A stretch of DNA of 40,203 bases, from positions 1-40,203 of the IMG/VR virus record IMGVR_UViG_3300031825_000361; one strand, given 5' to 3'. Each line of letters opens with the position of its first letter. Position 1 is the first letter of the stretch. Under the pieces are notes generated by a model, which had not been told where the DNA came from, did not search any database, and worked only from the letters and a program-made list of their open reading frames with translations. Both the position numbers and the translations under genes were made by a program. This DNA is from a virus. This document shows positions 1-39,726 of this stretch, one piece after another.

Positions 1-600
1 TCACCGCCCAGCCAGGCTTGACGGCCTGAACGCGGGCTCCCAGGTTGCCAGGCCGGCCGGCTGGGACGCCCGCGGTATGTGGGCAGCGTCCAGTTGGGAC
101 AGCACCTGGGACAGCAAGCGCAGGCCCATGGGCGCCAGTTCCCGGCGCCATAGCTCCTCGGCCGTGTCGCCCGGCCTGATCCAGCACCAGTCCTGCGCCG
201 CGATGTCGCCGGTGTCGGCGCCGTCGTCGAGCCAGTAGGCCGTGCCGCCAGTGACCAAGTCGCGCATGTGCACGGCCCAGTGGATGGCATCACGGCCGCG
301 GTGGCGTGGCAACAGGCTGGGGTGATAGCCCAGGGCACCCAGTCGGGCCCGCTGGCGGGCCGCGGCCGTGACAAAGACATGGGCGTGGGCGCACAGGATC
401 AGGTCAATCCCACCTGGAACCCATGCCGCGTCCAGGCGCCGGTCGGCCTGGCACAGCGGCACGCCGGCGTCCACCGCCAGGGCCGCCAGGCGGTCATCGG
501 TGCGCGGCGCGCTGACGGCCGCGACGTCGTCGCCGCGTTCCAGGCACAGCTTCAGCACCTCGGCACCGAACCACTTCTGGCCAACGATCATGACGCGCAT
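1..600 (-). CDS. Formyltransferase-like protein of the DNA-modification cassette
   Basis: A 199-aa protein with the fold signature of folate-dependent formyltransferases (the Met-tRNA formyltransferase and GART group). An N-terminal beta-alpha start (MRVMIVG, residues 1-7) is followed by HPSLLPRHRG at 93-102, with the catalytic-type His93, and by DDGADTGD at 125-132, with Asp129 matching the family's catalytic Asp. The usual Asn two residues before the His is Gly91 here, so the chemistry may be altered. It lacks the C-terminal tRNA-binding domain of Fmt. The ATG at 600 lies inside the 3' end of the ABC-GNAT gene (13-bp overlap), so the two are probably translated together. A role in adding or processing a one-carbon group on a modified base or its precursor is inference. 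Confidence 0.8.
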   Translation of the reverse strand: MRVMIVGQKWFGAEVLKLCLERGDDVAAVSAPRTDDRLAALAVDAGVPLCQADRRLDAAWVPGGIDLILCAHAHVFVTAAARQRARLGALGYHPSLLPRHRGRDAIHWAVHMRDLVTGGTAYWLDDGADTGDIAAQDWCWIRPGDTAEELWRRELAPMGLRLLSQVLSQLDAAHIPRASQPAGLATWEPAFRPSSLAGR

Positions 601-1721
601 GGGGCCTCCCCGAGATAGCGGAAGCCCTGCACAGCGCGGAAGTGGCCACCGTAGCCTGACCCCGGGGCGTTGAACCCCAACCTGGCGGCCGACTTGGCGA
701 TGCTGGCCACGCTGCGCGCTTTGCTCTCGCCCACCAGGTGGGCGGAAACCTGCGTCCAGCGGTCCGAGCGGCGCAGCGCGCTGGCCAGGCCGGGGTGGCT
801 GGTGTGGAACAGCGTCAGCATGGGCTTGGCGTAGCGGTTCTGGCCGAGCCGCCAACGCTCGCAGACCGCGTCAAGGAAGCGCAGGCCGACGCCAGCGCCT
901 TGCCACTCGGGCATGACGACCAGGCGGCAGGCGCGTGCCTCGCGCAGGCCCGCGCGGGTGCTGACGGCCACATGCGCGACGAGCTGCTCGTCCACGGTGG
1001 CGACGTAGTTGGTGGCGGCGATCATCCGGGGCAGCTTCAGATAGTGATGCGGCTCAAAGGCTGCCCAATGGCGCCAGTCTGTTTGCCAGACGTCGACGTC
1101 GAGGCGCGGTCGGCGCCGAAGCCACCCCCGTGTGAATTGGCCGCTGGCGGTGTCGAACACCCAGTCCGGCTGGATCCAGTCCAGGATGTCGTAATGGCAG
1201 CTCAGCAGCACGGCCTGGCCGCCGGTGCGCCGCCAGGCCTTGGCGAAGGCGCCCGCGCCGATCTGCGCGATCTGGCGATCGACCACGCTGCTGAACTCAT
1301 CGAGCACGGCCCGCTCGGGCGCCTCGGCGATCAGCCGGGCCAGGTTGGCGCGGAACTGCTCGCCGTTGGAAAGCACCGGGAACGGCCGCAGCCAGGTTGG
1401 CACGCTACCCAGGCCGACGCTGGACAGCGCCGCCGTCACGGCGTCGAAGCTTCCGCCCGGGGTGATGGCGTCGATCACCGGCGCGTCGGCTGGCCAGGCG
1501 GGCGCATAGACCGCCTCGGCGCCCCACAGGGACCGGCCCAGGCTGGTCTTGCCCGAACCGCTGGGGCCGACGATGACGCCGATCTGCCAGGGCGCTGACT
1601 CGATGTCGAGCTCGGCCTCGAGGGTGAAGTTCGCGCCGGTCTCGACGTTGAACAGCGACTTGACCCGCGCGGCGCGGTAGCTGCTGAAGTCGTCGCAGCG
1701 GTGATGGATGGCGAGCTTCAT
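588..1721 (-). CDS. ABC-type ATPase fused to GNAT acetyltransferase (Mom-like position)
   Basis: A 377-aa two-domain protein. The N-terminal half is an ABC ATPase: Walker A GPSGSGKTS at 52-60, signature LSNGEQFR at 117-124, Walker B AVLDEF at 138-143 and an H-loop His at about 176. No membrane segment is present, so it is not a transporter subunit. The C-terminal half, from about residue 210, looks like a GNAT N-acyltransferase with an acyl-CoA loop around VMPEWQGAGVG (269-279). It lies downstream of a Com-like gene, where Mu carries mom, and Mom is itself a GNAT-fold DNA-modifying enzyme. The ATG at 1721 overlaps the stop of the 58-aa gene (ATGA). Inferred role: ATP-dependent DNA scanning or base access coupled to acyl transfer. 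A non-DNA substrate cannot be excluded. Confidence 0.82.
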   Translation of the reverse strand: MKLAIHHRCDDFSSYRAARVKSLFNVETGANFTLEAELDIESAPWQIGVIVGPSGSGKTSLGRSLWGAEAVYAPAWPADAPVIDAITPGGSFDAVTAALSSVGLGSVPTWLRPFPVLSNGEQFRANLARLIAEAPERAVLDEFSSVVDRQIAQIGAGAFAKAWRRTGGQAVLLSCHYDILDWIQPDWVFDTASGQFTRGWLRRRPRLDVDVWQTDWRHWAAFEPHHYLKLPRMIAATNYVATVDEQLVAHVAVSTRAGLREARACRLVVMPEWQGAGVGLRFLDAVCERWRLGQNRYAKPMLTLFHTSHPGLASALRRSDRWTQVSAHLVGESKARSVASIAKSAARLGFNAPGSGYGGHFRAVQGFRYLGEAPCAS

Positions 1722-1894
1722 ACGCACACCACCTTGGGCGTCAGGCCCATCTTCACCAAACGGCCGTAGAGGCGCTGCTGGTGCGCCTCGTCCTGGCAGG
1801 TCACCACCAGGCCAAACTGCTGGCGGTACTTGAAGCCATTCTCACCGGGCCGCGGGGCCGGTTTCTGGCGCGGGGAAACGGGGGTCTTGCCCAT
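1718..1894 (-). CDS. 58-aa conserved-looking protein of the Com/ABC-GNAT cassette
   Basis: A small basic protein. An N-terminal Lys/Pro-rich stretch (MGKTPVSPRQKPAPRPG) leads into a compact beta-alpha-beta-like unit with the pattern QFGLVVTCQDEAHQQRLYGRLVKMG and a VVCV end. The ATG at 1894 has an AGAGGA Shine-Dalgarno about 6 nt upstream. The gene overlaps com by 53 bp in another frame and ends in an ATGA overlap with the ABC-GNAT gene, so it is locked into the cassette. I recall similar short proteins beside modification genes in other phages but cannot give a family name. It could be an accessory subunit or a translational coupler. Confidence 0.78.
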   Translation of the reverse strand: MGKTPVSPRQKPAPRPGENGFKYRQQFGLVVTCQDEAHQQRLYGRLVKMGLTPKVVCV

Positions 1895-2057
1895 GGGTCG
1901 TCCTCTTTTCAGGCTGAGACGCTCCAGGGCGTTCTGGTTCGGGGCTCGGGGCCCTCAGGTGGTTCATCGTCCCGCAGCGCGGGCACTTGATGATCAAACG
2001 ACTGAACAGTCCGGTGCCGAGCTTGCGCGAACAGGCACCACAGCGAATATCTTCCAT
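1842..2057 (-). CDS. com: Com-like zinc-finger translational activator
   Basis: A 71-aa protein beginning MEDIRCGACSRKL, with a second cysteine pair in IIKCPRCGTMNHL. This gives a four-Cys zinc ribbon (Cys 6, 9, 25, 28) in the spacing of phage Mu Com. The C-terminal 35 residues are Pro/Glu/Arg rich and probably disordered. In Mu, Com binds the mom mRNA and opens its translation start. Here com is the first gene of the cassette and would act on the 58-aa and ABC-GNAT genes that overlap it. The ATG at 2057 is preferred over an upstream TTG because the zinc ribbon starts immediately after it. Confidence 0.85.
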   Translation of the reverse strand: MEDIRCGACSRKLGTGLFSRLIIKCPRCGTMNHLRAPSPEPERPGASQPEKRTTHGQDPRFPAPETGPAAR

Positions 2058-23874: not shown

Positions 23875-24774
23875 TCAGCACCCCCTGATCACTTGCGCGT
23901 CCACCTGCGGCCAGCCGGCGCGGGCGGCGGCGTTCATGGCGCGGCACACCAGGTTGTTCACCACCAGCGGGTGGCACATGCTGCGCGCGTCGCTGGCCTT
24001 GCCGCCGCGCGGGATGCGGATCAGCCGGGCGCGGATGGCGTCGGCCGCGTCGGGGGCGAACACGTCCTCGTACTTCAGCTCGAAGCGGGCGAACTTGTGG
24101 CGCAGGTAGCCCTCCAGCTCGGCGTCCAGCGGGTCCAGTTCGACCACCTCGCAGCGCTGCGCCACCTCGCGCACCTCGGCGTTCTGGCTGGAGAGGCGGT
24201 CGCGCAGCTCGGGCTGGCCGATCAGTGCCACGCCCAGCAGCCGCTGCATGCCGTCCTTGAGTTCCAGGAAGCGCTTGAGGTGCTTGAGCGTGGCGGTGGG
24301 CAGGCCGTGCGCCTCCTCGATCAGGAGCAGATGCCGGCGACCGGCGCGCCGGCTGGCCTTGAGCAACTGGTGCACCTGCTCGAAGCGGGCCTGGGGCGAG
24401 CTCTTGACCTTGAGCTGCGGGTCCAGCGCGGAGGCGATCGCCTCGGCGATGTGGCTCGACTTCAGGGTCTTGCCCTTCTGGTCGTTCTGCTCCATGGCCA
24501 GCACATAGGGGCGGATGACCACCACGTCGCGCTGGTCCGTCTTGAGGCGCTCCTCCAGGTCCTCGGCCAGCGTGGACTTGCCGGCGCCGCTCTCGCCGAC
24601 CACGGCCAGGAAGCCGTGGTGAACGGCGCAGTCCATCAGCGTGGCGCGCACGTAGCGCACGCTGGGCGTCTGGAACACGTCGTCGGGCGATTGCACGTCG
24701 TCCACAAAGGGACTGCGCGGCAGGTTGAAGTGACGCTTCGCGTCCGGGGTCAGGGATTGGTTTTCCAGTAGCAT
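23875..24774 (-). CDS. Possible short form of B from an internal start
   Basis: The ATG at codon 96 (24774) follows GAGGAGGAAACC, a strong ribosome site, exactly at the junction between linker and ATPase. It would give a 299-aa AAA protein without the helix-turn-helix. This could be an alternative product, or the mark of an HTH domain fused onto an older B gene. Confidence 0.4.
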   Translation of the reverse strand: MLLENQSLTPDAKRHFNLPRSPFVDDVQSPDDVFQTPSVRYVRATLMDCAVHHGFLAVVGESGAGKSTLAEDLEERLKTDQRDVVVIRPYVLAMEQNDQKGKTLKSSHIAEAIASALDPQLKVKSSPQARFEQVHQLLKASRRAGRRHLLLIEEAHGLPTATLKHLKRFLELKDGMQRLLGVALIGQPELRDRLSSQNAEVREVAQRCEVVELDPLDAELEGYLRHKFARFELKYEDVFAPDAADAIRARLIRIPRGGKASDARSMCHPLVVNNLVCRAMNAAARAGWPQVDAQVIRGC

Positions 24775-25059
24775 GGTTTCCTCCTCGGGGGTTTCCGTTT
24801 GGTTGGGGGCTTCAGGGGCGGCCTCGGGCGCTGCAACGCCCGGGGCCAACTTGGTTTCAGGGGCGGCATACAGGGCCAGCAGCTGGGCTGGCGTGGCGCC
24901 ATGGGCGCGCAGGCAGGCATCCAGCTTCCGGCGAGCCTGCGTGGCGCCGCGCGCCGGCCAGGTGCCGCCGGCGATGCGGCTGACGGTGGGCTGGCTCAGG
25001 CCCGTCTCTCGCGCCAGGTCGCGCTGGCTCAGGCCCAGGGCTTCGAGGACGGCTTTCAT
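23875..25059 (-). CDS. B: Transposition ATPase B with N-terminal HTH (BcepMu/ExeA-like AAA type)
   Basis: A 394-aa protein. Residues 1-50 form a helix-turn-helix (LSQRDLARETGLSQPTVSRIAGG). A Pro/Ala-rich linker follows (70-95). An AAA ATPase has Walker A GESGAGKST at 155-163 and Walker B LLLIEEAH at 244-251, then a sensor-like LIGQPELRDRL. The ATPase resembles ExeA-type proteins used as the B function in BcepMu-type phages. B proteins bind DNA non-specifically, choose the target and stimulate A. It overlaps the transposase stop by 4 bp. Confidence 0.87.
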   Translation of the reverse strand: MKAVLEALGLSQRDLARETGLSQPTVSRIAGGTWPARGATQARRKLDACLRAHGATPAQLLALYAAPETKLAPGVAAPEAAPEAPNQTETPEEETMLLENQSLTPDAKRHFNLPRSPFVDDVQSPDDVFQTPSVRYVRATLMDCAVHHGFLAVVGESGAGKSTLAEDLEERLKTDQRDVVVIRPYVLAMEQNDQKGKTLKSSHIAEAIASALDPQLKVKSSPQARFEQVHQLLKASRRAGRRHLLLIEEAHGLPTATLKHLKRFLELKDGMQRLLGVALIGQPELRDRLSSQNAEVREVAQRCEVVELDPLDAELEGYLRHKFARFELKYEDVFAPDAADAIRARLIRIPRGGKASDARSMCHPLVVNNLVCRAMNAAARAGWPQVDAQVIRGC

Positions 25060-26828
25060 GCGCCGCCTCCCGCCACCACGCGCAGGCCGGCGCGCACCGT
25101 CAGGCGGGCCTGCAGGTCATCGAGCTGGTCCTCGGGCACGCCGTCGGGCCAGCCGTTGCACAGAGTGGCCACCAGCTCGGGGCTCATGGCCACGCCGCGC
25201 GCCACCAGCGCCTTGGCGGCCTCGAACTGGCTGAGCACGCGGGCCGGCGCGGCGGTGGTGCTGACCGTGGTGGCCAGCTCAGTGCCGCGGCGCGGCAGGA
25301 AGGTGCGCTCGGGCGCCTGCTCGATCACCTTGAACGGGTCGATCCGGCCGCCGAACGGCACGGCCTTGGCCTTGCGCTTGGCCTCGGCCTCCGCGTCGGT
25401 GGCGGCGTCCATGGCGAAGCGCTCCACCTCCTTGCGGTTGCCGTCCAGGGCGGTGTCGGCCGGGCGGGCCCAGTCCTCGCCGATCACGTTTCCGTCGGCG
25501 CGGAATCCCGCCTCGTCGCGCACCACCAGCGGGATGGTGTGCAGCGCCTCGTTGCCGTCGGCGTCGGTGTCCACCACGGTGGCGGCGTCCAGCACGTAGG
25601 GGTTCAGAGCAATGCGCAGCTTCTCGCCCACCATCACGCCGGGCACGGCACGCACGTCGAACTCGCGGCCCTTGAACGACACGGTGAGCGTGTCGGTCAC
25701 GGTGCGGGTTTCCGGCTCGTGCGTGAGCAGCTCGCGGCACAGTTCCACCGGCGGGGCCAGGCGCAGCTGCTCGGGCGTGATGGTCAACCACTGGTCGTAG
25801 CGCGTGCGGCCGTGGCGGCTGTGCACCTTGTTGGCGTTGAACCAGCGGGCCCAGCGCTGGGCCTGGGCGTTGAGTTCGGCCAGGTCGCGAACGGGGCTCA
25901 GCCGCAGGCCGGACTCGAAGCTCTTCTCGATCAGGTCGCGCGCCTTCTCCACCTGGCCGGTGGCGCGGGCGTTGCCCGGCGCGTGGGCGATGGTCTTGAC
26001 CTGCAGCCGGCGCGCCAGGTTGGCGAACAGGCCGCTGGTGTTGGCGCTGCCCATGTCCATCATCAGGATGAAGGGCACGCCGTGCAGCGGGTCAGCCTCG
26101 CGCGGCTGGATGGCGGCGATGAAGCTCTCCGCCAGGTTGGCGCCGCTCTCGGCGCCCAGCACGTAGTGCACGAAGATGGCGCCGCTGTGGTGGTCCGTCA
26201 CCTCGTAGGACCAGACGCGGTCGGCCTCGATGCGCTTGAGGTTGCCCGGCTTGTTCTTGTAGAACTTGTCGCGCTCCATCACCTGCAGGCCGCTCTCGGC
26301 CTCGGTGCGGGCGTTCAGGTAGTACAGCACGCACAGCGAGGCGTCGATCTGCCAGACGTGGTTGGGGTGCAGGCTTTTGAGCTCCACCGCCGGGGTGGGC
26401 CGGTTGAGCTGGTCGGGGTGCAGGCCGTAGCTGCGCAGGGCTCGGGCGATGGCGCTGTCCGACAGTGGGCGCAGCTCGCCGGTGGCGGGATCGACGCGCT
26501 CGGCACGCACCTCGCCGTTGGCGCGCATCACCTCCACGGCCTGGCCGATGGACATGAGGCGCTTGTTGGTCTTGCGGTGGCTGACCATCAGCGCGGCGCT
26601 GATGGCGATCGCCTCCTCGCGGCTGAGCGTCACCTCGCCGGCGTCGCTGCGCTGCTTGCGTTCGGGTTTCATGGAGACCTTTCCCAGGTGGCGGTGCAAG
26701 GTGGCCAGGCTGATGCCCAGCTCCTGGCAGGCGGCGGCGTAGACGGCCTGCTTGCCGCCGGCCGGGGCCGCGGCGGCGGCTTGAGCCACTTGCACCAGGC
26801 GTTGCGTGAGCACGGGGTTGATCGGCAT
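25056..26828 (-). CDS. A: DDE transposase A
   Basis: A 590-aa protein. The N-terminal DNA-binding part has a helix-turn-helix near residues 28-50 (AVYAAACQELGISLATLHRHLG). The catalytic core shows Asp162 (VWQIDAS), Asp258 (MMDMGSAN) and Glu294 (GQVEKARD), the last two 35 residues apart as in retroviral-integrase-type transposases. A mu-transposase C-terminal beta-barrel-like segment (FKGREFDVRAVPGVMVGEKLRIALNPY) follows. It is shorter than Mu A (663 aa) and closer to the BcepMu type. It catalyses joining of the phage ends to target DNA. Confidence 0.93.
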   Translation of the reverse strand: MPINPVLTQRLVQVAQAAAAAPAGGKQAVYAAACQELGISLATLHRHLGKVSMKPERKQRSDAGEVTLSREEAIAISAALMVSHRKTNKRLMSIGQAVEVMRANGEVRAERVDPATGELRPLSDSAIARALRSYGLHPDQLNRPTPAVELKSLHPNHVWQIDASLCVLYYLNARTEAESGLQVMERDKFYKNKPGNLKRIEADRVWSYEVTDHHSGAIFVHYVLGAESGANLAESFIAAIQPREADPLHGVPFILMMDMGSANTSGLFANLARRLQVKTIAHAPGNARATGQVEKARDLIEKSFESGLRLSPVRDLAELNAQAQRWARWFNANKVHSRHGRTRYDQWLTITPEQLRLAPPVELCRELLTHEPETRTVTDTLTVSFKGREFDVRAVPGVMVGEKLRIALNPYVLDAATVVDTDADGNEALHTIPLVVRDEAGFRADGNVIGEDWARPADTALDGNRKEVERFAMDAATDAEAEAKRKAKAVPFGGRIDPFKVIEQAPERTFLPRRGTELATTVSTTAAPARVLSQFEAAKALVARGVAMSPELVATLCNGWPDGVPEDQLDDLQARLTVRAGLRVVAGGGA

Positions 26829-26850
26829 GGCGGGCTGGGGGTACGTCCGG

Positions 26851-27780
26851 TTACTGGGCCCACTGCGCCACTTCGCTGGCCAGCTGCTGCGCTGCGGCGG
26901 TGGACACGTCGGGCAGGTTGAACTCCTCGCGCAGGGCGTTCAGGTCGGCCTGCAGCTGGCCGACCAGGCCGGCCATGAAGACCACCTTGTTCGGCGTGTC
27001 GGGCGTGTCGTTCAGGGCGATCAATGCCTGGCGCACACCGCCGCGGATGGCGCCCAGAGCGTCGTTGGCGATGGACGTGGCCTCACGCTGCAGGTTGGCC
27101 AGCGCCTCCTCGGGCGGCAGCTTCTCGATGCGCTTGACCTGCGCGCGCAGCTTGTCCATGGCGGCGTTCTTGTCGCTGAGCACCTTCTCCACGGCGGTCT
27201 TTTCCTCGCGCGTCTCGCGCAGCGCCGCGCGCAGTTCCTTCACGCTCATGGTGGCGATGTCATCGAGCTTGAGCTCGCCGGTCTGGCCGGTCAGCTCCAG
27301 CTCCTCGATCTGCTCGTCGTCGAGGACCAGCATCTCGAACAGCTTGGTCTGGTTGCCTGCGGCCTTCAAAAGCGGCGTTGACGCCGCATTTGAGAACTTG
27401 GCGGCCGAGGCCATGAACCGCTGCGCCACACGAGTTTCGATCCCCAGCACCTCCAGGCGGGCGACGAACTGACCGTGCTGGCAAGCCGCCTTCAACACCG
27501 CCAGCCCACGCCCGACCTCCAGGCAGGCCTCCACGCTGCGGCGCATGTTGGCGCTGATATCGCGCTGGATCAGGTCGGGGTCGGTGCAGTCGGCCGGCAG
27601 CTGGTAGCCCAGCTGGGTGGCCACGGCGCGCACGGCGCTCTCGTGCTGCTGCTGGGCCAGGGCCAGCGCCTGGCCGTCGGCGCGCATCTGTGCCATGGCG
27701 CCTTCGACCTTGCCGGTGTCGAGGCCTCCCTCGGTCATGTCGATCACGTCGGCGGCGATGGGTTTACGTCCTGCGGTCAC
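26851..27780 (-). CDS. Early coiled-coil protein (DUF3102-like)
   Basis: A 309-aa largely helical protein upstream of the transposase. It contains EACLEVGRGLAVLKAACQHGQF and LGIETRVAQRFMASAAKF, the pattern of DUF3102-like phage early proteins. A long coiled coil follows (SVKELRAALRETREEKTAVEKVLSDK, shortened, about 180-215). The ATG at 27780 lies 34 bp after the upstream gene. Possible roles include DNA-binding accessory factor or ParB-like helper; unproven. Confidence 0.78.
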   Translation of the reverse strand: MTAGRKPIAADVIDMTEGGLDTGKVEGAMAQMRADGQALALAQQQHESAVRAVATQLGYQLPADCTDPDLIQRDISANMRRSVEACLEVGRGLAVLKAACQHGQFVARLEVLGIETRVAQRFMASAAKFSNAASTPLLKAAGNQTKLFEMLVLDDEQIEELELTGQTGELKLDDIATMSVKELRAALRETREEKTAVEKVLSDKNAAMDKLRAQVKRIEKLPPEEALANLQREATSIANDALGAIRGGVRQALIALNDTPDTPNKVVFMAGLVGQLQADLNALREEFNLPDVSTAAAQQLASEVAQWAQ

Positions 27781-27814
27781 GTGGGGTTCCTTTCTTGGTT
27801 GTGGTTCGTGGGGT

Positions 27815-28129
27815 TCAGTCGGGCTGCGTCATGAAGCGCGCGCGGCTGTCGTCCAGCCGGCGCTGCGCCCGGTCGATGGCGGTCCAGACCTTGATGGCCT
27901 GCTGCGGCAGACGCGTGGTCAGGCGCCACAGGCCGGTGGCCTCATCGCGCTCAGCCAGGCCGGCGGTGGCCAGGTTGTCCAGGTCGCGGGTGATGACCGG
28001 GGCGCTGCAACCCACGGTCTTGGCCAGGGTGCTCGGCGCCATGCCGTGGACGACGTCGCTGAACAGGGCCAGGATCACCTTCACCAGGCGCTGCTGGGCG
28101 GCGTTTGTGTAGTTGGTCTTGCGGGTCAT
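27815..28129 (-). CDS. Winged-helix DNA-binding early protein
   Basis: A 104-aa protein. Residues 10-75 (QRLVKVILALFSDVVHGMAPSTLAKTVGCSAPVITRDL...GLWRLT) form a winged helix of the IclR N-terminal type. The last 30 residues are an Arg-rich helix. It lies 4 bp downstream of the next HTH gene, so these are co-translated. Likely a regulator or accessory factor of transposition. Confidence 0.78.
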   Translation of the reverse strand: MTRKTNYTNAAQQRLVKVILALFSDVVHGMAPSTLAKTVGCSAPVITRDLDNLATAGLAERDEATGLWRLTTRLPQQAIKVWTAIDRAQRRLDDSRARFMTQPD

Positions 28130-28133
28130 GGGG

Positions 28134-28601
28134 TCAGAACTCCAGTTCGGGCTCGGCGTGGCGCGCCACGTTGGCGCGGTGCCACGCCACTTGTTCCATG
28201 TGGCTGCTCAGAGCGATCACGGTCTCGGCGGGGTCAGAGCCGGGGTTGGCGTAGAAGTCGGTCAGCAGCTGCAGCGCGGCGGCGAAGCCGCTGTTGAGCT
28301 CCACCATGTCGGTCTGCCCGGCACGCCGGCCGGTGGGCAGCTCGATCACCATGCGGCCGGCGCTGGCGGCCAGCCAGTCGCTGGCGAAGTGGCAACCGCA
28401 GGCCAGCTCGTAGGCCGGGATCAGGATGGCCGGCAGGCGGCCCGTGGCCAGCCACTTGTAGAGGCTGTCGTGCGTCACGCCCATGCGGTCGGCGATGCGC
28501 TCGACAGAGAGGTTGGCCCGCTCCTGGGCAAACTCCTTGCACAGGCGCAGCGCCTCGACCAGGCTGTTCGGGCGCACCCGTTTCCAGTTGCGGCGGCTCA
28601 T
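28134..28601 (-). CDS. Early HTH protein
   Basis: A 155-aa protein from an ATG at 28601. The N-terminal half has a helix-turn-helix (LSVERIADRMGVTHDSLYKWLATGRLPA). The C-terminal half is helical (LNSGFAAALQLLTDFYANPG). Its ribosome site GGAGGG and the A of its start codon are contained in an RNA hairpin, so translation may be controlled. The short intergenic region upstream is shared with a divergent plus-strand gene. Confidence 0.78.
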   Translation of the reverse strand: MSRRNWKRVRPNSLVEALRLCKEFAQERANLSVERIADRMGVTHDSLYKWLATGRLPAILIPAYELACGCHFASDWLAASAGRMVIELPTGRRAGQTDMVELNSGFAAALQLLTDFYANPGSDPAETVIALSSHMEQVAWHRANVARHAEPELEF

Positions 28602-28630
28602 TGGAAGGCCCTCCGCGCGGGGGCTTCCAA
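28601..28630 (-). promoter_or_regulatory. Hairpin masking the start of the 28601 gene
   Basis: On the minus-strand RNA, UUGGAAG pairs with CUUCCAA (7 bp). After one mismatch, CCC pairs with the GGG of the GGAGGG ribosome site. The 3' arm ends in the A of the AUG. The arrangement would limit ribosome entry until opened by a protein, by transcript context or by a translating ribosome. Confidence 0.5.
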
Positions 28631-28706
28631 ACAAAAAGCTCGGCTGGGGCTGGTGCGCGACGAGCCCGCTTTGAACAATGAGCCCATCGCAACACGGGAG
28701 GACACG

Positions 28707-28997
28707 ATGGAAGAATTCGACGAACTGGCCGGGCGCATCGAGGGGGTGGCGCGGGCCGTGCTGCTGCTGGCGCAGATGATGGAGCGCGAGACGTGCATGG
28801 ATGGCCTCACGCTGACACGCCAGTGGCGAGAGTCTGTTCCGCCGCAAGACGGTGCGGGCATTGCTGGCACAGCGCGCAAGACCCTGCATGAGCTGGCGCA
28901 GGCGCTGGATGACGCACGTAGCCAGCACCAAGAATCGGTTGCTGCGGCAAGGCGGGAAGATCCGTCGCTGCAGCGGGCGCTGTCACATCGGCCATGA
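28707..28997 (+). CDS. Small plus-strand protein inside the early region
   Basis: A 96-aa acidic helical protein (MEEFDELAGRIEGVARAVLLLAQMM...), with GGGAGG 5 nt before the ATG. It is divergent from the HTH gene at 28601 and convergent with the Ner-like gene. No family recognised. A long leftward transcript from the ner promoter would cover it in antisense, so it is probably expressed under repressed (lysogenic) conditions or from its own promoter. Confidence 0.68.
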   Translation: MEEFDELAGRIEGVARAVLLLAQMMERETCMDGLTLTRQWRESVPPQDGAGIAGTARKTLHELAQALDDARSQHQESVAAARREDPSLQRALSHRP

Positions 28998-29060
28998 CCT
29001 CAGCGCGAAGCGCATCATGGCAATTTGTTACATTGGACGTTGGACGCGTCATGACGGTCC

Positions 29061-29294
29061 TCAGGCGGCGGAGAGCTTGGAGCCGGAGCGGGAGACCTCG
29101 CCATCCTTCAGGCCGAGCTGCACGGCGATGTTGTGTGCATCGCCGCGCAGGCACTTGAGGCGCGGGTTGACCTCGTTGTCCGCCAGGATGGCGATGACCA
29201 GGTTGGGGCTGTAGCGGTTGTCCCTGGCCCAGCCGGAGATCGACCAGCCTTTGCGGGCGAACTCTTCGCGGACCTGCGATCGGGTTTTGAGCAT
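29061..29294 (-). CDS. ner: Ner-like early DNA-binding protein
   Basis: A 77-aa protein from an ATG at 29294, preceded by AGGA. It has the Ner/Nlp layout: MLKTRSQVREEFARKGWSI, then GWARDNRYSPNLVIAILADNE (shortened) and a C-terminal LGL motif. First gene leftward from the early promoter, facing the repressor, exactly the position of ner in Mu. Ner normally turns down both the early and the repressor promoter. An upstream in-frame extension to 29384 is unlikely because it would run through the dyad at 29316. Confidence 0.8.
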   Translation of the reverse strand: MLKTRSQVREEFARKGWSISGWARDNRYSPNLVIAILADNEVNPRLKCLRGDAHNIAVQLGLKDGEVSRSGSKLSAA

Positions 29295-29315
29295 GGTGCT
29301 GCGTCCTGTTTGTTG

Positions 29316-29337
29316 TGCATCAGTTGGCGCTGATGCA
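29316..29337. promoter_or_regulatory. 8-bp-arm dyad in the ner leader
   Basis: TGCATCAG, six bases, CTGATGCA: a perfect 8-bp inverted repeat between the early promoter and the ner start, about 20-40 bp into the transcript. It is probably an operator for Ner or the repressor. Confidence 0.6.
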
Positions 29338-29362
29338 TTTGTTGGTTTGTCTTGTTGTATTG

Positions 29363-29391
29363 ATTCTAGTGCACGTTTGTGCACCTTTCAA
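29363..29391 (-). promoter_or_regulatory. Early promoter with operator in its spacer
   Basis: On the minus strand TTGAAA (29391-29386) and TAGAAT (29368-29363) are separated by exactly 17 bp. The spacer holds GTGCAC-AAAC-GTGCAC, two copies of a self-complementary hexamer. A dimeric repressor bound there would block RNA polymerase. This is the strongest sigma70-like promoter seen in the window and points into ner. Confidence 0.7.
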
Positions 29392-29409
29392 TAATTTATT
29401 GGGGTTCAT

Positions 29410-29850
29410 GTGAGCACTTTTTCTGAGCGCCTGCGCGAGGAGAGGCTGCGGCTTGGCCTGAACCAGACCGAGTTCGCAGAAGCCGCCGGAGTCCAGAAGC
29501 GGGCTCAGGTGAACTACGAGGCCGGAGAACGTCTGCCTGACGCGGGGTACCTGATGGCCGTTGCCGATGCGGGTGTGGACGTGGCATACGTCCTCACCGG
29601 CCAGCGCGAGCCGTCAGCGCCCGCGCTGGATGCGGCCGAGCGTGTGCTGCTGGACAGTTACAGGCGCTGCTCAGTCGATGCCAAGGCCAATCTGATCCAG
29701 ACGGCGGCACTGTTGTCGGCGGGCATGGCGCCGACAAAGGCGAAGGCGGCCAGCGGAGGTATCCAGATCGGCGATATGACCAACAGTGCGCCGGGTGGCG
29801 TTCAGGTAGGTCACGCGGGCGGAAAGGTGAGCATCAAGAAAGGGAGGTAA
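29410..29850 (+). CDS. c: C-type (XRE family) prophage repressor
   Basis: A 146-aa protein from a GTG at 29410. Residues 5-65 form an XRE helix-turn-helix (RLREERLRLGLNQTEFAEAAGVQ...VNYEAGERLPDAGYL). A helical dimerisation-like middle follows. The C-terminal 30 residues are an unusual Gly/Val/Ile stretch (GGIQIGDMTN...GGVQVGHAGGKVSI) that reads like turns of a small beta-solenoid. Divergent from ner, 115 bp apart, with two dyads between. No LexA-like peptidase domain, so not induced by self-cleavage. Confidence 0.83.
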   Translation: MSTFSERLREERLRLGLNQTEFAEAAGVQKRAQVNYEAGERLPDAGYLMAVADAGVDVAYVLTGQREPSAPALDAAERVLLDSYRRCSVDAKANLIQTAALLSAGMAPTKAKAASGGIQIGDMTNSAPGGVQVGHAGGKVSIKKGR

Positions 29851-29853
29851 GCG

Positions 29854-30435
29854 TTGAGGGAGGAGCAGCCAAGCCTGGTCAACATGGGCCACTGCGCAAT
29901 TCAGGTCGGACGAGCGGATGGCGATGTGACCATCGTCCAGATGCCGGCGTCCCCACCGACCGAGTCGGAACTGCAGGCGCGCTTTGAGAGGGCCACCGGC
30001 ATCCGCTGTGGCCGTGCCGTGCGCGAACGGATGGAACACCTGATGGAGAACCACGGCTTCACATCTTGGGAGCTCAGTCGCGCCTGGAAGGCTAGCGCCC
30101 TGGTCTCTGATCGGCAAACCGCGCAGTTACGCAGGGACTTCGGCAGGCTGGACTTGCTGATGGGCTGGACCGGCATGGCCATGGCAACGCTGTACTTCCT
30201 GGCGGGGATGCTTGAGTCCGTTCTTCTGCTGCGTGACGCACTGTTTATGTACATGCCCATCGCCGCAGCCCTGGGATGCCTGCTGTACGTTGGGACACTC
30301 GGGTTCTTCTTCTACGTTTTTATCTGGCCGCAGCACACCGCGAAGAGAGTGACGGTGGCGCTGCAGTCAGCCGAAGCCATCAACCAGAAGGCCGCGATGA
30401 CAGCGGCCGAGGATTCCACCAGGGGGGAGTCATGA
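29854..30435 (+). CDS. Two-TM membrane protein co-expressed with the repressor
   Basis: A 193-aa protein, probably from a TTG at 29854, since AGGGAGG lies about 6-7 nt upstream; an ATG ten codons later lacks such a site. The N-terminus contains CAIQVGRADGDVTIVQ, similar to the repeat pattern at the end of the neighbouring repressor. A helical domain follows. Two membrane spans (LLMGWTGMAMATLYFLAGM and IAAALGCLLYVGTLGFFFY) come before a basic tail. Only 3 bp after the repressor stop. It could be a lysogenic-state membrane protein such as an exclusion factor. Confidence 0.72.
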   Translation: MREEQPSLVNMGHCAIQVGRADGDVTIVQMPASPPTESELQARFERATGIRCGRAVRERMEHLMENHGFTSWELSRAWKASALVSDRQTAQLRRDFGRLDLLMGWTGMAMATLYFLAGMLESVLLLRDALFMYMPIAAALGCLLYVGTLGFFFYVFIWPQHTAKRVTVALQSAEAINQKAAMTAAEDSTRGES

Positions 30436-31022
30436 GGTATTTACACATCTTCGCGGCGTTGGCGGTGGCGCTGGCCGGCCCGGTTTGGGCGATCAACAAA
30501 TGCACCGGGCCGGATGGCAGGCCGGTGTTCCAGGACGCGCCCTGCACAGCGGGCAAGGGGGAAGCGCTCAACGTGCGCCCCGCGTCCGGGCATGGCGCAA
30601 CGACAACCGCCGCCGATGCCCAATACGCCACCGAGAAGATCAAGCGCGACAACGAGATCTCCGAGGCGATCCGGCTGAACCGCCCCCTGGTGGGCATGAC
30701 CATGGCTCAACTGAACCAGGCCATGGGCGCACCGACCAAGATCAACGCCAGCAACGTCGACGGCGTCGCGCACGACCAGCTGATCTACGAACGTCCGAAC
30801 GAGACCTGGTATGTCTACCCTCGGAACGGCATCGTCGGCACGGTCCAGCATCGCCCCGGCGCGCCCCTGGGCACGTCCGCTCGCGAGGCCAGGGCCTGCC
30901 CCTCCGCGCATGAGATCCGCAATCTGGAGACGTCGGCGTCCAGCATCACGCTGTCCGAGGCGCAACGCGCCGGGTTGATGCGGCAGATTCGGGATGCGAA
31001 GAACTGCGGGGCGGGTGGGTGA
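30432..31022 (+). CDS. Secreted DUF4124-like protein (lysogenic-conversion candidate)
   Basis: A 196-aa protein from an ATG at 30432 that overlaps the previous stop (ATGA). A signal peptide (MRYLHIFAALAVALAGPVWA) ends near residue 20. A DUF4124-like motif follows (INKCTGPDGRPVFQDAPC, two Cys likely disulfide-linked). The remainder has PLVGMTMAQLNQAMGAPTKIN and a final Cys. It should act in the periplasm or envelope. Expressed from the repressor operon, so present in the lysogen. Confidence 0.75.
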   Translation: MRYLHIFAALAVALAGPVWAINKCTGPDGRPVFQDAPCTAGKGEALNVRPASGHGATTTAADAQYATEKIKRDNEISEAIRLNRPLVGMTMAQLNQAMGAPTKINASNVDGVAHDQLIYERPNETWYVYPRNGIVGTVQHRPGAPLGTSAREARACPSAHEIRNLETSASSITLSEAQRAGLMRQIRDAKNCGAGG

Positions 31023-31150
31023 AGTTGGCTGGTTGCCGGCCAATCTAACGAAAACGCTGTGCATGGTTGGTCGTGTAGTGCGGTCCTATTTGCTCATGCA
31101 CCACTTCAGCGCAGGAATCTTCACTTTTCGAGAACTTCAAGGAGGTACTA

Positions 31151-32014
31151 ATGTCACTAACACGAACCATAAAAATCTCTGCTCTAAACATCGCGATGCA
31201 CCAACCGCACTCTCCGCAGCGCTACGTGTCACTTTTTCACGATGCGAAGAAACTCGGTCAACTGGTACGCCTTGGGTCGTTGCATGGGACCATGCTCGGC
31301 TCACTTAGTGGGGTGAAGGAGTACACCAAGGGAGCTGTTCTGACCGGGGAGATTTACCGCTTTGTCAAGCTTGATGCCAACGAGCCATGGTTCAACATAG
31401 AAACTCTGGAGGAAGCTACAGAAAACGAAGTCGATGGCATCAAGATACCCTCTCACTTATTGCCTCATCTTCAAAGAATCGAGTTTGTATTCAGGCCTGA
31501 TGTCCATGAACTTTGGTTCGTAAGCCAAGACAGAGATGACAGACTTGGTCCGCAGGCTGCGGCCAAGTTTTTTCAATCGCTATTTGACCGACTGGTCGAT
31601 TCCGGAAAATATCCAAGGGTAGAGGTTACGGCAGTTCCGGATCACGAGACTTTGGATCAGATGCTTTCGCTGCGTAAGGTTGAAAAACTCACCATTGAAC
31701 TCAAACGCCCGAACGCAGATGATGCAGCGAAGGAAGAGGCGCGCTGGCTAAAACAATTAGAGAAACAGAAGGCACGAAAGATGACCGTCGAGTTGGTGGC
31801 AGAAAAGGGAGATTCAGTCGTACCAGATGAGGAAACCAGATCGCTTGCGACGGTCGCATCAAAAAATGGGAATGTGTCCGTCGTCGGCAGAAACGAACTA
31901 GGGACAAGGGTTGAAGAGTCCACCAAGGCTAAGCCGCTGATGAAGCCTGCGCTGGTCGACTCGGAGCTAGAGACGTCACTTGACGTCTTGCGCCGCGCTG
32001 CTTTCGGCGGGTAA
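31151..32014 (+). CDS. DUF4747-like protein, cargo/defence candidate
   Basis: A 287-aa protein with a strong ribosome site (AAGGAGGT) 6 nt before the ATG. The N-terminus TIKISALNIAMHQPHSPQRYVSLFHDAKKLG is of the type I associate with DUF4747, from memory. A beta-rich core follows (RIEFVFRPDVHELWFVSQD, then QAAAKFFQSLFDRLV). Thr/Lys-rich helical stretches come next, ending ETSLDVLRRAAFGG. G+C is clearly lower than in the phage genes around it. It is 16 bp upstream of a four-TM gene. The pair looks like a cytosolic sensor or regulator with a membrane effector; that function is inferred. Confidence 0.68.
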   Translation: MSLTRTIKISALNIAMHQPHSPQRYVSLFHDAKKLGQLVRLGSLHGTMLGSLSGVKEYTKGAVLTGEIYRFVKLDANEPWFNIETLEEATENEVDGIKIPSHLLPHLQRIEFVFRPDVHELWFVSQDRDDRLGPQAAAKFFQSLFDRLVDSGKYPRVEVTAVPDHETLDQMLSLRKVEKLTIELKRPNADDAAKEEARWLKQLEKQKARKMTVELVAEKGDSVVPDEETRSLATVASKNGNVSVVGRNELGTRVEESTKAKPLMKPALVDSELETSLDVLRRAAFGG

Positions 32015-32030
32015 GTAGTACTATTGCAAA

Positions 32031-32600
32031 ATGTACACAGGGGTTCTCAACATCTTTGGCCGCTACTGGCAGGCCTACGGAGGTGGATCGGCTCTAGTGC
32101 GGTCGCCTTACCTACACGCGGCCGCCGTGCTCCTGGTTTTGACCTACGCGACGTGGTCTCAGAACGGGTGGTGGGAACAAGTGCTCAGCGTGATGCCGAA
32201 CTTGCTTGGTTTCACGTTAGGTGGGTTCGCGATGTTTCTTGGGTTTGGCGACGAAAAATTCAGATCACTTTTGGCCGAGCCAGACGAAGACGCAATCGGT
32301 GAGCCGACTCTATACGTTTCAATCTGCGCAACTTTTGTCCATTTCATCGTGGTGCAACTGTTCGCGCTGGTTGCCGCAGTCGTAGCTAAATCCTGGTGGT
32401 TCTATTTCCCATGGCCAGAGCCAATTCGAGTTTTTCTACCATTTCTCAACCTTTTTGGCTGGGCCTTTGGGTATGCTTTTTTTCTGTATGCATTGACTTC
32501 TGTGCTTGCGGCAACCATGCACGTTTTTAGGATCGCAACGATGTATGAGCAACACCAGCAGGTTCAAGCGACCAATCGTGCAAGCAATGACGAAAAATGA
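32031..32600 (+). CDS. Four-TM membrane protein paired with the DUF4747-like gene
   Basis: A 189-aa protein with four hydrophobic segments: YLHAAAVLLVLTYATW, VMPNLLGFTLGGFAMFLGFG, ICATFVHFIVVQLFALVAAVV and PFLNLFGWAFGYAFFLYALTSVLAA (shortened in part). An acidic loop (EPDEDAIGEP) lies after TM2 and there is a short cytoplasmic tail. No ribosome site is visible, so it probably depends on translation of the upstream gene. Similar lower G+C. A membrane-disrupting or channel effector is plausible but unproven. Confidence 0.7.
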   Translation: MYTGVLNIFGRYWQAYGGGSALVRSPYLHAAAVLLVLTYATWSQNGWWEQVLSVMPNLLGFTLGGFAMFLGFGDEKFRSLLAEPDEDAIGEPTLYVSICATFVHFIVVQLFALVAAVVAKSWWFYFPWPEPIRVFLPFLNLFGWAFGYAFFLYALTSVLAATMHVFRIATMYEQHQQVQATNRASNDEK

Positions 32601-32653
32601 GCAGATCCTGCGACTGATCCAACCGGAATCATTGCGGGTGTTGCCGACAGTTT

Positions 32654-32667
32654 TTAAAACGCTTTAG
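32654..32667. promoter_or_regulatory. Late-operator-like element upstream of the rightward late operon
   Basis: TTAAAACGCTTTAG matches the core of the 18289 dyad (CTAAAG-nn-CTTTAG) at 11 of 14 positions. It lies 37 bp before the amidase ATG, against 35 bp for the other copy. Inferred second binding site of the same late activator. Confidence 0.5.
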
Positions 32668-32704
32668 ATATCGATCCTTTTGGTCTCGCGGCACATTGCC
32701 ATGC

Positions 32705-33292
32705 ATGCCGCGCCCCATCAACCTCATCGTCATCCACTGCAGCGCCACGCCCAGCGGTAAGCCGCTGGTGCAGGGCCAGCCGGGCCAGGCCGGCTACCTG
32801 AACGCGCCGCAGGTCATCAACGCCTGGCATGCAGCACGGGGCTTCCGCCGCCAGCCCCAGGCGGTGCGAGCCTTCAACTCGCGCCTGCCCTCGATCGGCT
32901 ACCACTACGTGATCGACCTCAGCGGCGAGGTGTGGAACGGCCGCGGCCTGGATGAGGTGGGCGCCCATGCGGCGGGCTTCAATGCCAACAGCGTCGGCAT
33001 CTGCATGGTGGGCGGCGCCGAGCGCGAGGCGCGCTACACGCTGGCGCAATGGGACAGCCTGGCGCAGGTCGTGGGCATGCTGTGCCACGACCACGGCGTG
33101 CCGCTGACCACACCGCCGTGCGGGACGCACGCGAACGGCATCTGCGGCCACCGCGACCTGTCGCCGGACCTCAATGGCAACGGCATTGCCGATCCTGCGG
33201 AGTGGCTCAAGACCTGCCCTGGCTTCGACGTGTCGGCCTGGCTGGGCCACGGCATCAAGCCGCTATCGCAGCATGTCCTGGAGGCCGTGTGA
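32705..33292 (+). CDS. N-acetylmuramoyl-L-alanine amidase (endolysin)
   Basis: A 195-aa amidase_2 / T7-lysozyme-type enzyme. Zinc ligands fit His11 (LIVIHCSAT), His149 (CGHRDLS) and Cys171 (LKTCPGF), with GYHYVID in the middle. It cleaves the MurNAc-L-Ala bond of peptidoglycan for host lysis. No signal peptide, so export depends on the holin immediately downstream. The ATG at 32705 is used; a TTG three codons earlier is in frame. First gene of the rightward late operon. Confidence 0.88.
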   Translation: MPRPINLIVIHCSATPSGKPLVQGQPGQAGYLNAPQVINAWHAARGFRRQPQAVRAFNSRLPSIGYHYVIDLSGEVWNGRGLDEVGAHAAGFNANSVGICMVGGAEREARYTLAQWDSLAQVVGMLCHDHGVPLTTPPCGTHANGICGHRDLSPDLNGNGIADPAEWLKTCPGFDVSAWLGHGIKPLSQHVLEAV

Positions 33293-33831
33293 TGGAACCT
33301 GTGTCCATGGCTCTGGCGCTGGCCCAGTTCGCGCCCAGCATCCTGCGCTTCTTCGGAGCCGGCCAGGGCTCGGTGGACACGGCGCAGAAGGTCGTGAACA
33401 TCGCCCAGACCGTGGCCGGCGTGAAGACGCCCGAGGAAGCCCTGCAGGCGCTGCGCGCCAATGCTGAGCTGGCGCAGCAGTTCAACCTGGCGGTGTTGGC
33501 CGCTGACAAGGACTTGGAGCAAGCGCATCTGGCCGACCGCCAGGATGCACGCGCGCGGGATGTCGAGTTCATCCGCGCAGGCCGCACCAACACGCGGGCC
33601 GATGTGATGGTGGCCGGCGCGGTGCTGGGCCTGATCGCCTGCCTGGCGTGCCTGGTGCTGTTCCGCCAGGGCCTGCCGGGCGAGGCGGTGGGGATCATTT
33701 CCACGGTGGCGGGCATCTTCGGCGCCTGCCTGCGCGACGCCTTCCAGTTCGAGTTCGGCTCCTCGCGCAGCTCGCGCGACAAGGACTCGGTGATCAACCA
33801 GATGGCCTCGCGCCAGGGGGCCCAACCATGA
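33292..33831 (+). CDS. Holin-like protein (3TM holin type)
   Basis: A 179-aa protein from an ATG that overlaps the amidase stop (TGATG). The N-terminal half is helical (AQKVVNIAQTVAGVKTPEEAL). Two clear membrane spans (VMVAGAVLGLIACLACLVLF and GIISTVAGIFGACLRDAFQF) and a FEFGSSRSSRDKD tail match the GTA/3TM holin pattern. It would open the inner membrane to release the amidase. Confidence 0.82.
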   Translation: MEPVSMALALAQFAPSILRFFGAGQGSVDTAQKVVNIAQTVAGVKTPEEALQALRANAELAQQFNLAVLAADKDLEQAHLADRQDARARDVEFIRAGRTNTRADVMVAGAVLGLIACLACLVLFRQGLPGEAVGIISTVAGIFGACLRDAFQFEFGSSRSSRDKDSVINQMASRQGAQP

Positions 33832-34052
33832 CGGACGAGATCGACCGCGCCAGCGCGCGGGAGCAGGAATGGCTGGCCGACGCGCTGGGCGATCAAGCCC
33901 GCCGTGCCGGCCTAGCCGGCAAGACGGCGGCGGATTCGGCCGAATGCTGCGAGGACTGCGGCGTCGATATCCCGGCCGCACGCCGCGCAGCCGTGCCCGG
34001 CTGCCTGCGCTGCGTGGCGTGCCAGGCACGCGCGGAAAGGCGCCGGCCATGA
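33828..34052 (+). CDS. TraR/DksA-type zinc finger protein
   Basis: A 74-aa protein with a CxxC...CxxC zinc ribbon (CEDCGVDIP...CLRCVAC) preceded by an N-terminal helix, the layout of phage TraR/DksA-like proteins. These bind the secondary channel of RNA polymerase and can tune host transcription. Overlaps both neighbours by 4 bp. Common in this position in Mu-like phages. Confidence 0.85.
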   Translation: MTDEIDRASAREQEWLADALGDQARRAGLAGKTAADSAECCEDCGVDIPAARRAAVPGCLRCVACQARAERRRP

Positions 34053-34444
34053 ATGTACAGATCGAACTGTGGCACCTGGTCAGCCTGATGCTGGCGGTGC
34101 TGGGCGGCTACTGGACGCTGGCCAAAGTCGTGGCCGGCCAGGCACAGAAGCACCTGGACGCCCGCTTCACCGCGCAGGACGCGATGCGCCAGGCGAACCA
34201 CCAGCAGCTGGCGGTGCGGCTGGACGGCATCGAGGCGGCGAACCGCGAGGAGGCCGGGCAGTGGTCGCGCATGGAGCGCGAGCTGCTGATGCTGAAGGCG
34301 GAGCTGCCGCTGCAGTACGTGCGGCGCGAGGACTACATCCGCGGCCAGAGCGTGATCGAGGCCAAGCTCGACGCGCTGGGCTCGAAGCTGGAAGCGGCCC
34401 ACCTGCGGGCACTGAATGGAGGGAGAACCCATGCAACAGATTGA
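34049..34444 (+). CDS. Membrane-anchored coiled-coil protein (DUF2730/spanin-like)
   Basis: A 131-aa protein with one N-terminal membrane helix (HLVSLMLAVLGGYWTLAKVVAG) and a long helical remainder (HQQLAVRLDGIEAANREEAG, then IEAKLDALGSKLEAAHLRAL). This is the shape of a DUF2730-type phage protein and also of an inner-membrane spanin. No partner outer-membrane spanin gene was found in another frame. Overlaps the TraR-like gene by 4 bp. Confidence 0.7.
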   Translation: MNVQIELWHLVSLMLAVLGGYWTLAKVVAGQAQKHLDARFTAQDAMRQANHQQLAVRLDGIEAANREEAGQWSRMERELLMLKAELPLQYVRREDYIRGQSVIEAKLDALGSKLEAAHLRALNGGRTHATD

Positions 34445-34742
34445 CCACGCCAAGGTGCGCCGCGAGGCGTTGCGCTGGCTGATCCTGCTCACGCTGAACA
34501 ACGCGCGGCCGATGGGCGCGCACGAGGGCCCGGTGCTGTCCGTGGCCCAGGCCGTGTACCCCGACGCGACGCCGCTGGAGCTGCGGCGCGAGATGGACTA
34601 CCTACACGAGCGCGAGTTGGTGAAGGTGAGCAAGTCTCCCAGCGGTCCCTGGCATGCCGACCTCACGCGCCACGGCGTGGACGTGGCCGAGTACACGGTG
34701 GACTGCGAGCCGGGCATTGCCCGGCCGGCGAAGTACTGGTGA
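34431..34742 (+). CDS. Mu gp26-type protein (winged-helix-like)
   Basis: A 103-aa protein with GGAGGGAG before the ATG. It starts MQQIDHAKVRREALRWLILLTLNNARPMGAHE and has LELRREMDYLHERELVKV and HADLTRHGVDVAEY. This reads as a winged helix found just before the small terminase in Mu-like phages. Possible regulator or packaging accessory. Confidence 0.78.
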   Translation: MQQIDHAKVRREALRWLILLTLNNARPMGAHEGPVLSVAQAVYPDATPLELRREMDYLHERELVKVSKSPSGPWHADLTRHGVDVAEYTVDCEPGIARPAKYW

Positions 34743-34746
34743 CGCC

Positions 34747-35310
34747 ATGGGGCGCAAGAGCACCATTGCCCGCCTGCCGGTGGAGGTGAAAGCCTTCATC
34801 GAGGGCCACCTGGCCGAGGGCCGGCTGACGCTGGACGAGCTGATCGCGGCGCTGCGCGAGCGCTTCCCCTCGCACGACGGCGCGGGCGAACTGCCCAGCC
34901 GCGCGGCGGTGCACCGCTACGGGCAGAAGCTGGAGCGTCGCCTGTCGGCCATCCGCGCCAGCACGGAGGCGGCCAAGATCATTCAGGCGCAGGCTGGCGA
35001 CGACGAGGACGCGCGCTCCGAAGCCCTGACGGCGCTGGTGCAGACCGAGCTGTTCGAGGCCATCCTCAGCCTGCAGGAGGCGGACGACGAGGACGCCGAC
35101 CCCGGCGAGCGCGTCGGGCTGCTGAGCAAGGCGGCCAAGGACATTGCCACGCTGACGCGGGCCAGCTACGGCCTCAAGAAGTTCCAGACCGAGGTGCGCC
35201 AGCGCGCCGAGACGGCAGCCGTCAACGTGGAAAAAATCGCCAAGAAGGGCGGGCTGTCGGCCGAGTCGGTGGAGCAGCTGCGGCGCGAGATCCTGGGCAT
35301 TGCCGCATGA
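34747..35310 (+). CDS. Small terminase subunit (Mu gp27 / DUF3486 type)
   Basis: A 187-aa protein starting MGRKSTIARLPVEVKAFIEGHLAEG with LTLDELIAALRERF and RAAVHRYGQKLERRLSAIRAS, the typical DUF3486 start and HTH region. An acidic stretch (ADDEDADPGE) and LSKAAKDIATLTRASYGLKK follow. It recognises phage DNA and feeds it to the large subunit. Overlaps the large terminase start by 4 bp. Confidence 0.87.
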   Translation: MGRKSTIARLPVEVKAFIEGHLAEGRLTLDELIAALRERFPSHDGAGELPSRAAVHRYGQKLERRLSAIRASTEAAKIIQAQAGDDEDARSEALTALVQTELFEAILSLQEADDEDADPGERVGLLSKAAKDIATLTRASYGLKKFQTEVRQRAETAAVNVEKIAKKGGLSAESVEQLRREILGIAA

Positions 35311-36836: not shown

Positions 36837-36846
36837 AAGCGAGACC

Positions 36847-39723: not shown

Positions 39724-39726
39724 CGC

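Follow-up and report, generated by a model that had tools for sequence, protein, structure and literature searches.

Viral record IMGVR_UViG_3300031825_000361 (IMG/VR), analyzed here over a stretch of 40,203 bases (the window), is a viral contig encoding a Mu-like transposase, a transposition protein, a tape measure protein, a major head protein, and a terminase. At one end of this transposable tailed phage lies a cassette of four overlapping minus-strand genes: com, which encodes a Com-type zinc ribbon; S58, which encodes a short protein; an ABC-ATPase/GNAT fusion gene (ABC-GNAT); and FT, which encodes a formyltransferase-fold protein. Here, we report evidence that this is probably a late-expressed phage DNA hypermodification cassette under translational control by Com, and that Com seems to gate translation of exchangeable phage DNA-modification genes in general. 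The gene arrangement, proposed in an earlier note on this DNA, was confirmed by open reading frames (ORFs), Pfam, and PHROGs, with a PHROGs family for each of the four proteins. Consecutive genes, from com to FT, overlap by 53, 4, and 13 nucleotides (nt), and the FT stop codon occupies the first bases of the record, the gene ending exactly at the record end (Table 1).

Com matched Zn_ribbon_Com (E value, 2e-15; 56 bits against a cut-off of 22.9) and the translational regulator family of PHROGs (E value, 2e-19), with Cys6, Cys9, Cys25, and Cys28 invariant among 28 relatives. The Com site obtained by systematic evolution of ligands by exponential enrichment is a hairpin whose loop, closed by a C-G pair, reads CC(N)2-3GAG (PMC6483171). 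Mu's Com site contains GAAUGCCUGCGAGCAUC, and this loop motif is common to Mu and the window, in which two hairpins bearing it (1954..1942 and 1932..1919; H1 and H2) lie about 22 nt apart in the 3' coding region of com. Out of 50 nonredundant com regions ahead of ABC-GNAT, 43 carried at least one such hairpin (mean, 1.36, versus 0.012 in shuffles). When all classes of downstream gene (cargo) were pooled (145 nonredundant com regions), 85% had at least one hairpin and 52% at least two, versus 6% and 0.1%, respectively, after synonymous codon recoding, so protein coding is not the explanation for the excess. Stems were exactly 4 bp long in 200 of 201 hairpins, flanked by an A.C mismatch. Among sequences chosen by their loop letters only and counted ungapped, the four H1 pairs were formed in 53 of 53 and the H2 pairs in 52 to 53 of 53, being kept through compensatory GC, CG, AT, TA, and GT changes; covariation is strong, the counts being sequences and not independent events. 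A search for a known Rfam family for the RNA element returned nothing above threshold.

Hairpin H2 overlaps a predicted switch at the S58 start. In the minimum-energy fold of the window, the S58 start region (CCCAUGGGC) pairs with GCCCUGG at the H2 site, which makes H2 and an open start mutually exclusive there. Across loci, hairpin 3' arms paired with their own pre-start region at −10.0 kcal/mol, versus −8.3 kcal/mol with those of others (0 of 20,000 permutations), and forcing the Com hairpins lowered the cost of opening the S58 start by 4.0 kcal/mol, versus 1.6 kcal/mol when start regions were swapped (P = 2e-5; 42 loci). The conserved, covarying hairpins are predicted to compete with the structure that hides the S58 start; S58-ABC-GNAT-FT is therefore predicted to be under Com control in the way that mom is. 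In Mu mom, a structure hides the downstream start and Com relieves it; the same model is proposed here, with Com binding its hairpins presumptively.

The slot behind Com is filled by different enzymes. In 80 Com-led viral loci, the cargo was a D12 adenine methyltransferase (37), a DPPYxxGG N6/N4 methyltransferase (24), another DPPY protein (4), a C5 methyltransferase (2), or ABC-GNAT (1); Mom was found in 2 of the 7 loci scored as "other," and in 5 loci the cargo was absent before the contig end or unrecognized. A recognizable DNA methyltransferase was thus present in at least 67 of the 80; apart from the 2 with Mom, the remainder were mostly missed reading frames or contig ends. Pfam searches with cargo representatives returned Mom (PF25680; E value, 8e-73), MethyltransfD12 (E value, 1e-20), N6_N4_Mtase (E value, 1e-28), and the C-5 methylase (E value, 7e-56). 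Com lay upstream in 28 of 80 mom loci, 27 of these 28 with the same hairpins, and tandem Com hairpins in loci L093 to L172 and L253 to L332 also precede D12, N6/N4, and C5 DNA methyltransferases and Mom. The earlier note's view that the cassette sits in the Mom slot is upheld in that Com leads, its RNA target is present, and the slot is elsewhere filled by Mom or DNA methyltransferases.

Direct evidence that cassettes are exchanged behind a shared Com leader comes from two near-identical pairs. In L052 (ABC-GNAT-FT) and L282 (Mom), the 20-base steps starting 40 nt ahead of com and covering most of its zinc-ribbon codons have 18 to 20 identical bases each; identity then falls to chance across the hairpins, so that the break lies at the 3' end of com. 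L045 (ABC-GNAT-FT) and L169 (D12 methyltransferase) have com in common, plus a 49-bp stretch past the cargo. These pairs were used in place of a Com tree, which gave 46 cargo-class changes over 153 rows, since a gene as short as com does not yield a trustworthy tree. Searches for Mom (PF25680) were negative for the window record and 12 other cassette phages (control, Mom detected in 8 of 9 records expected to carry it), and no ABC-GNAT was found in 17 Com phages of the Mom or methyltransferase type (positive controls worked). Com and its hairpins are not Mom specific: the slot behind them is interchangeable and serves many DNA-modification enzymes, and the hairpin grammar offers a sequence handle for finding further, as yet unrecognized modification genes. 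In L158 (3604 to 4979), a Com-led D12 methyltransferase frame breaks off and is followed by an apparent transposase gene; the modification slot may carry an insertion there.

Relatives of ABC-GNAT were encoded in 505 of 510 pattern-matching stretches of viral contigs and in 450 of 491 pattern-matching stretches of bacterial genomes, a recurrence that argues against a chance assembly of the cassette. For neighbor counts, 80 loci were kept per set (viral contigs and bacterial genomes). The earlier note had proposed a genome-neighborhood survey for co-occurrence of the four genes. Among the 80 genome loci, the neighbors of ABC-GNAT included S58 in 79, FT in 65, and Com in 47. In nearly all loci, a single ATGA holds both the S58 stop and the ABC-GNAT start. 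FT either overlaps or directly adjoins ABC-GNAT. Several viral loci seemingly without FT merely stop at the ABC-GNAT/FT junction, and a few Com-led cassettes truly lack it, one of which (L206) seems to have an FT frame disrupted by mutation.

The cassette is borne by phages, recurring in phage contigs by the hundred and in prophages. In 10 Com-led genome loci, PHROGs assigned the largest upstream ORF to tail or baseplate functions in 7 and to a replication gene in 1, so the possibility that these genes reside mostly outside phages was not borne out. Upstream ORFs were used for this purpose instead of the structural proteins of the window phage, which were poor prophage markers in distant genomes (6 of 80). 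Close matches were rare on plasmids (one at 88% and one at 53%), and the cultured Pseudomonas phage Komp_PAO1_1 carries the whole cassette, com included. Identity with a defense system was considered and rejected, the PADLOC matches being weak, partial, and confined to the ATPase part (best, mad3; E value, 2e-7; 39 residues).

ABC-GNAT matched phrog_11143 (E value, 4e-155), ABC_tran (PF00005, above cut-off), and GNAT families (E value, 2e-5). The ABC motifs (Walker A, the LSxGE/Q signature, Walker B/D-loop DEF-S-V-D, and H-loop H176) were found in all or nearly all of 47 relatives, and the GNAT coenzyme A (CoA) motif R/Q-x-x-G-x-G/A was present as the conserved PEWQGAGVG (Q-G-x-G). AlphaFold modeled a two-domain protein (predicted local distance difference test [pLDDT], 83), the ABC part of which resembled transporter nucleotide-binding domains (Z, ~15). 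Whole-model fold searches were filled by ABC domains, and the GNAT part was therefore modeled alone (pLDDT, 86), matching amine acetyltransferases of the RimI/SpeG type (Z, ~14; root mean square deviation, 2.5 to 4 over ~130 residues). Given the intact ABC motifs, "ATP-dependent GNAT" seems a reasonable description. The earlier note had put this domain at the place of Mom; the GNAT fold stood, but no profile similarity to Mom was detectable, and Mom homology was rejected (profile-profile probability, 0.2%). From these comparisons, GNAT and Mom appear to be the same in superfamily and slot and not in family.

The S58 sequence corresponds to the C-terminal end of longer ORFs that precede ABC-GNAT in other phages. 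Pfam found an N-terminal ParB_N domain in such S58-ended proteins from L009, L011, L084, and L085, a borderline one in L007, and weak ones in Gordonia phages and L090, and in annotated phages, 19 of 19 S58 matches adjoin ABC-GNAT. S58 is best read as the putative docking domain of a ParB-like partner, retained minus the ParB domain. In Streptococcus Javan141, Lactococcus P335, and Oenococcus Vinitor-27 (L003, L004, and L011, respectively), ABC and GNAT are two adjacent genes behind a ParB_N protein, without FT; in two of the three, these split genes lie close upstream of the terminase, and their annotation as iron-siderophore or other ABC transporters is probably wrong. The "acr candidate" ahead of ABC-GNAT in a Porphyromonas phage (L005, 3867 to 4001) is an S58 relative, and the anti-CRISPR label is probably mistaken.

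The nearest PDB match of FT in a profile search was the N-terminal hydrolase domain of 10-formyl-tetrahydrofolate (10-formyl-THF) dehydrogenase (E value, 2e-38), with which FT has in common an HxSLLP motif, a His/Ser/Asp set, and a residue other than Asn before the His. H93, S95, and D129, which correspond to the catalytic residues of that enzyme, were kept in 32 of 32 FT proteins, and position 91, two before the His, was Gly in 31 and Ala in 1, never Asn. According to crystallographic work, the amine formylators Fmt, ArnA, and GART depend critically on Asn at this position, where 10-formyl-THF dehydrogenase has Ile (PMC4388273); with the catalytic Asn missing, assignment of FT as a GART/Fmt-type amine formylator was rejected. 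The formyl group is transferred to a phosphopantetheine thiol by 10-formyl-THF dehydrogenase, and formation of formyl-CoA has been proposed for HypX (PMC6802093), the N-terminal domain of which would pass formyl to the CoA thiol as suggested here for FT. Unlike both, FT is a free protein of 199 amino acids without their partner domains. From its active-site sequence, FT more likely passes formyl to a thiol, giving formyl-CoA or a similar product, than formylates an amine directly. In Gordonia phages (L002, 1814 to 2461), FT relatives are labeled tRNA methyltransferase; their sequence is that of a formyltransferase fold without the catalytic Asn.

Together, these features suggest the following mechanism. 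Com would bind the tandem hairpins in the 3' part of its own message, and bound Com would block pairing of the hairpin RNA with the S58 ribosome-binding site and start. S58, ABC-GNAT, and FT would then be translated in order via their overlapping stop and start codons. S58 probably docks on ABC-GNAT, the ABC domain of which may, as an ATP-bound dimer, clamp DNA and expose a base. The GNAT domain would acylate an exocyclic base amine, with a CoA thioester as the acyl donor. FT may move formyl from 10-formyl-THF to a thiol such as that of CoA, making the transferred group most likely formyl, and phage DNA so modified would be protected from host restriction, as Mom-modified DNA is. The earlier note's interpretation is partly supported: DNA modification is likely, because the Com slot elsewhere holds DNA methyltransferases or Mom and the RNA control is of the Com type; formylation, one of the options, is plausible. 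That FT makes a formyl thioester for GNAT is proposed because its active site lacks Asn and because 10-formyl-THF dehydrogenase acts, and HypX is proposed to act, on a thiol. DNA is with good confidence the substrate; formyl-CoA as the donor is the least certain part, for which we lean slightly toward doubt. Taken whole, an N-formylated DNA base made by an ATP-driven GNAT from formyl-CoA charged by FT, with Com as general gatekeeper of modification modules, is a tentative proposal.

Several observations weigh against this reading. The RNA region of the window is not unusually stable (fold z-score, −0.8), its release amounts to 2.2 kcal/mol, some loci show little effect, and kinship among loci is not fully removed from the permutation and swap tests. 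The profiles of GNAT and Mom are dissimilar, Mom (PF25680) being absent from the Pfam matches of ABC-GNAT, and we know of no precedent for formyl-CoA as a GNAT donor. FT was undetectable in about one-fifth of Com-led genome cassettes and so is not always needed, and none of the distant ABC-GNAT proteins seen was accompanied by it.

This patchy presence bears on the possibility that ABC-GNAT alone acetylates or acylates DNA and that FT is an accessory feeding or regulating one-carbon pools, a folate-linked auxiliary gene. The lack of FT in some cassettes and with all distant ABC-GNAT relatives seen would fit, as would the filing of the FT family among auxiliary metabolic genes in PHROGs. Against it, FT directly follows ABC-GNAT, with overlapping or abutting ends, in 65 of the 80 genome loci and stands behind it in ParB-type and Com-type cassettes alike, and we consider a purely accessory role rather unlikely. 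Somewhat less likely still is a two-step route in which GNAT attaches an amine-bearing acyl group (e.g., aminoacyl) to the base and FT subsequently adds formyl to this amine on the DNA, on the model of Fmt, which formylates Met-tRNA, and GART, which formylates a glycinamide. The order of the genes, with FT last behind GNAT, and the presence of amine formylators within the wider FT fold family would suit this route. The group added by Mom is amide bearing, which also counts in its favor. It is contradicted by the replacement of the Asn of amine formylators by Gly or Ala in 32 of 32 FT proteins and by the closest solved relatives of FT, which are 10-formyl-THF dehydrogenases.

A target other than DNA, whether RNA or a protein (e.g., tRNA, the ribosome, or a host factor), would agree with the nearest solved GNAT folds, those of acetyltransferases that act on proteins or polyamines (e.g., RimI and SpeG), and with weak matches of the ABC motifs to ABC-F translation factors. 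Such a target is nonetheless improbable: nearly all other occupants of the Com slot are DNA methyltransferases or Mom, and both the ParB_N partners of distant relatives and an earlier published prediction favor DNA.

That prediction concerns GNAT coupled with an ABC ATPase, for which an uncharacterized acyl modification of a DNA base was predicted, with phage pT24 as the example, in PMC7824862, which restates Iyer et al. 2013 for jumbo phages. The core idea of phage DNA acylation by ABC-GNAT was thus published before (PMC7824862), and the Tenacibaculum phage pT24 protein is a relative of the window ABC-GNAT (32.5% identity). The architecture of the systems of Iyer, Zhang, Burroughs, and Aravind, an ABC ATPase and a GNAT in phages, is also present here, to which Com control, a stand-alone S58, and FT are added. 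FT and Com are not mentioned with ABC-GNAT in PMC7824862, and the relevant passages of papers on BREX and Dnd, which deal with DNA modification with GNAT and ParB proteins, do not describe the cassette. A full-text literature search, with most subscription journals outside its coverage, returned no paper connecting ABC-GNAT with FT, Com, the hairpins, or S58. The decade-old prediction is now directly testable, with a candidate donor-making enzyme added.

In both the Mu com-mom operon and the window, a Com zinc ribbon comes first and DNA-modification cargo (predicted in the window) stands at the phage end. The cargo is Mom in Mu and S58, ABC-GNAT, and FT here, with a GNAT profile unlike Mom; also unlike Mu, two covarying hairpins lie inside com, and S58 would be controlled directly, with the enzymes coupled behind it. 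An N-formylated DNA base, if true, would be a kind of hypermodification undescribed so far as we know, and the cassette is predicted to give chemists a defined place to look for an undescribed DNA group.

Table 1. Cassette genes and predicted RNA elements at the end of the window
Feature	Position	Strand	Description
com	1842..2057	-	71 amino acids; Com-type four-cysteine zinc ribbon, leader gene; PF10122, phrog_6417
Predicted Com-binding RNA hairpin H1	1942..1954	-	GGGC-CCCGA-GCCC; motif match, covarying 4-bp stem
Predicted Com-binding RNA hairpin H2	1919..1932	-	ACGC-CCTGGA-GCGT; motif match, covarying 4-bp stem
Predicted translation-inhibition structure	1889..1930	-	S58 start region would pair with the H2 Com site
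S58	1718..1894	-	58 amino acids; phrog_28816 (E value, 4e-17)
ABC-ATPase/GNAT fusion	588..1721	-	377 amino acids; ABC, residues ~1-203; GNAT, residues ~207-370
FT	1..600	-	199 amino acids; Formyl_trans_N fold; PF00551 (E value, 4e-21), phrog_9240 (E value, 1e-62)

In L027 (4633 to 7022), an apparent ParB-like gene, for which a Pfam scan gave no match, and a D12-type methyltransferase frame were seen by eye downstream of ABC-GNAT, at the place of FT; two modification modules may be stacked there. In the window itself (23875 to 40203), transposition, head, and tail genes lie on the minus strand, and the terminase, portal, and minor head genes lie on the plus strand at the other end, a strand split that is unusual for a Mu-like phage.

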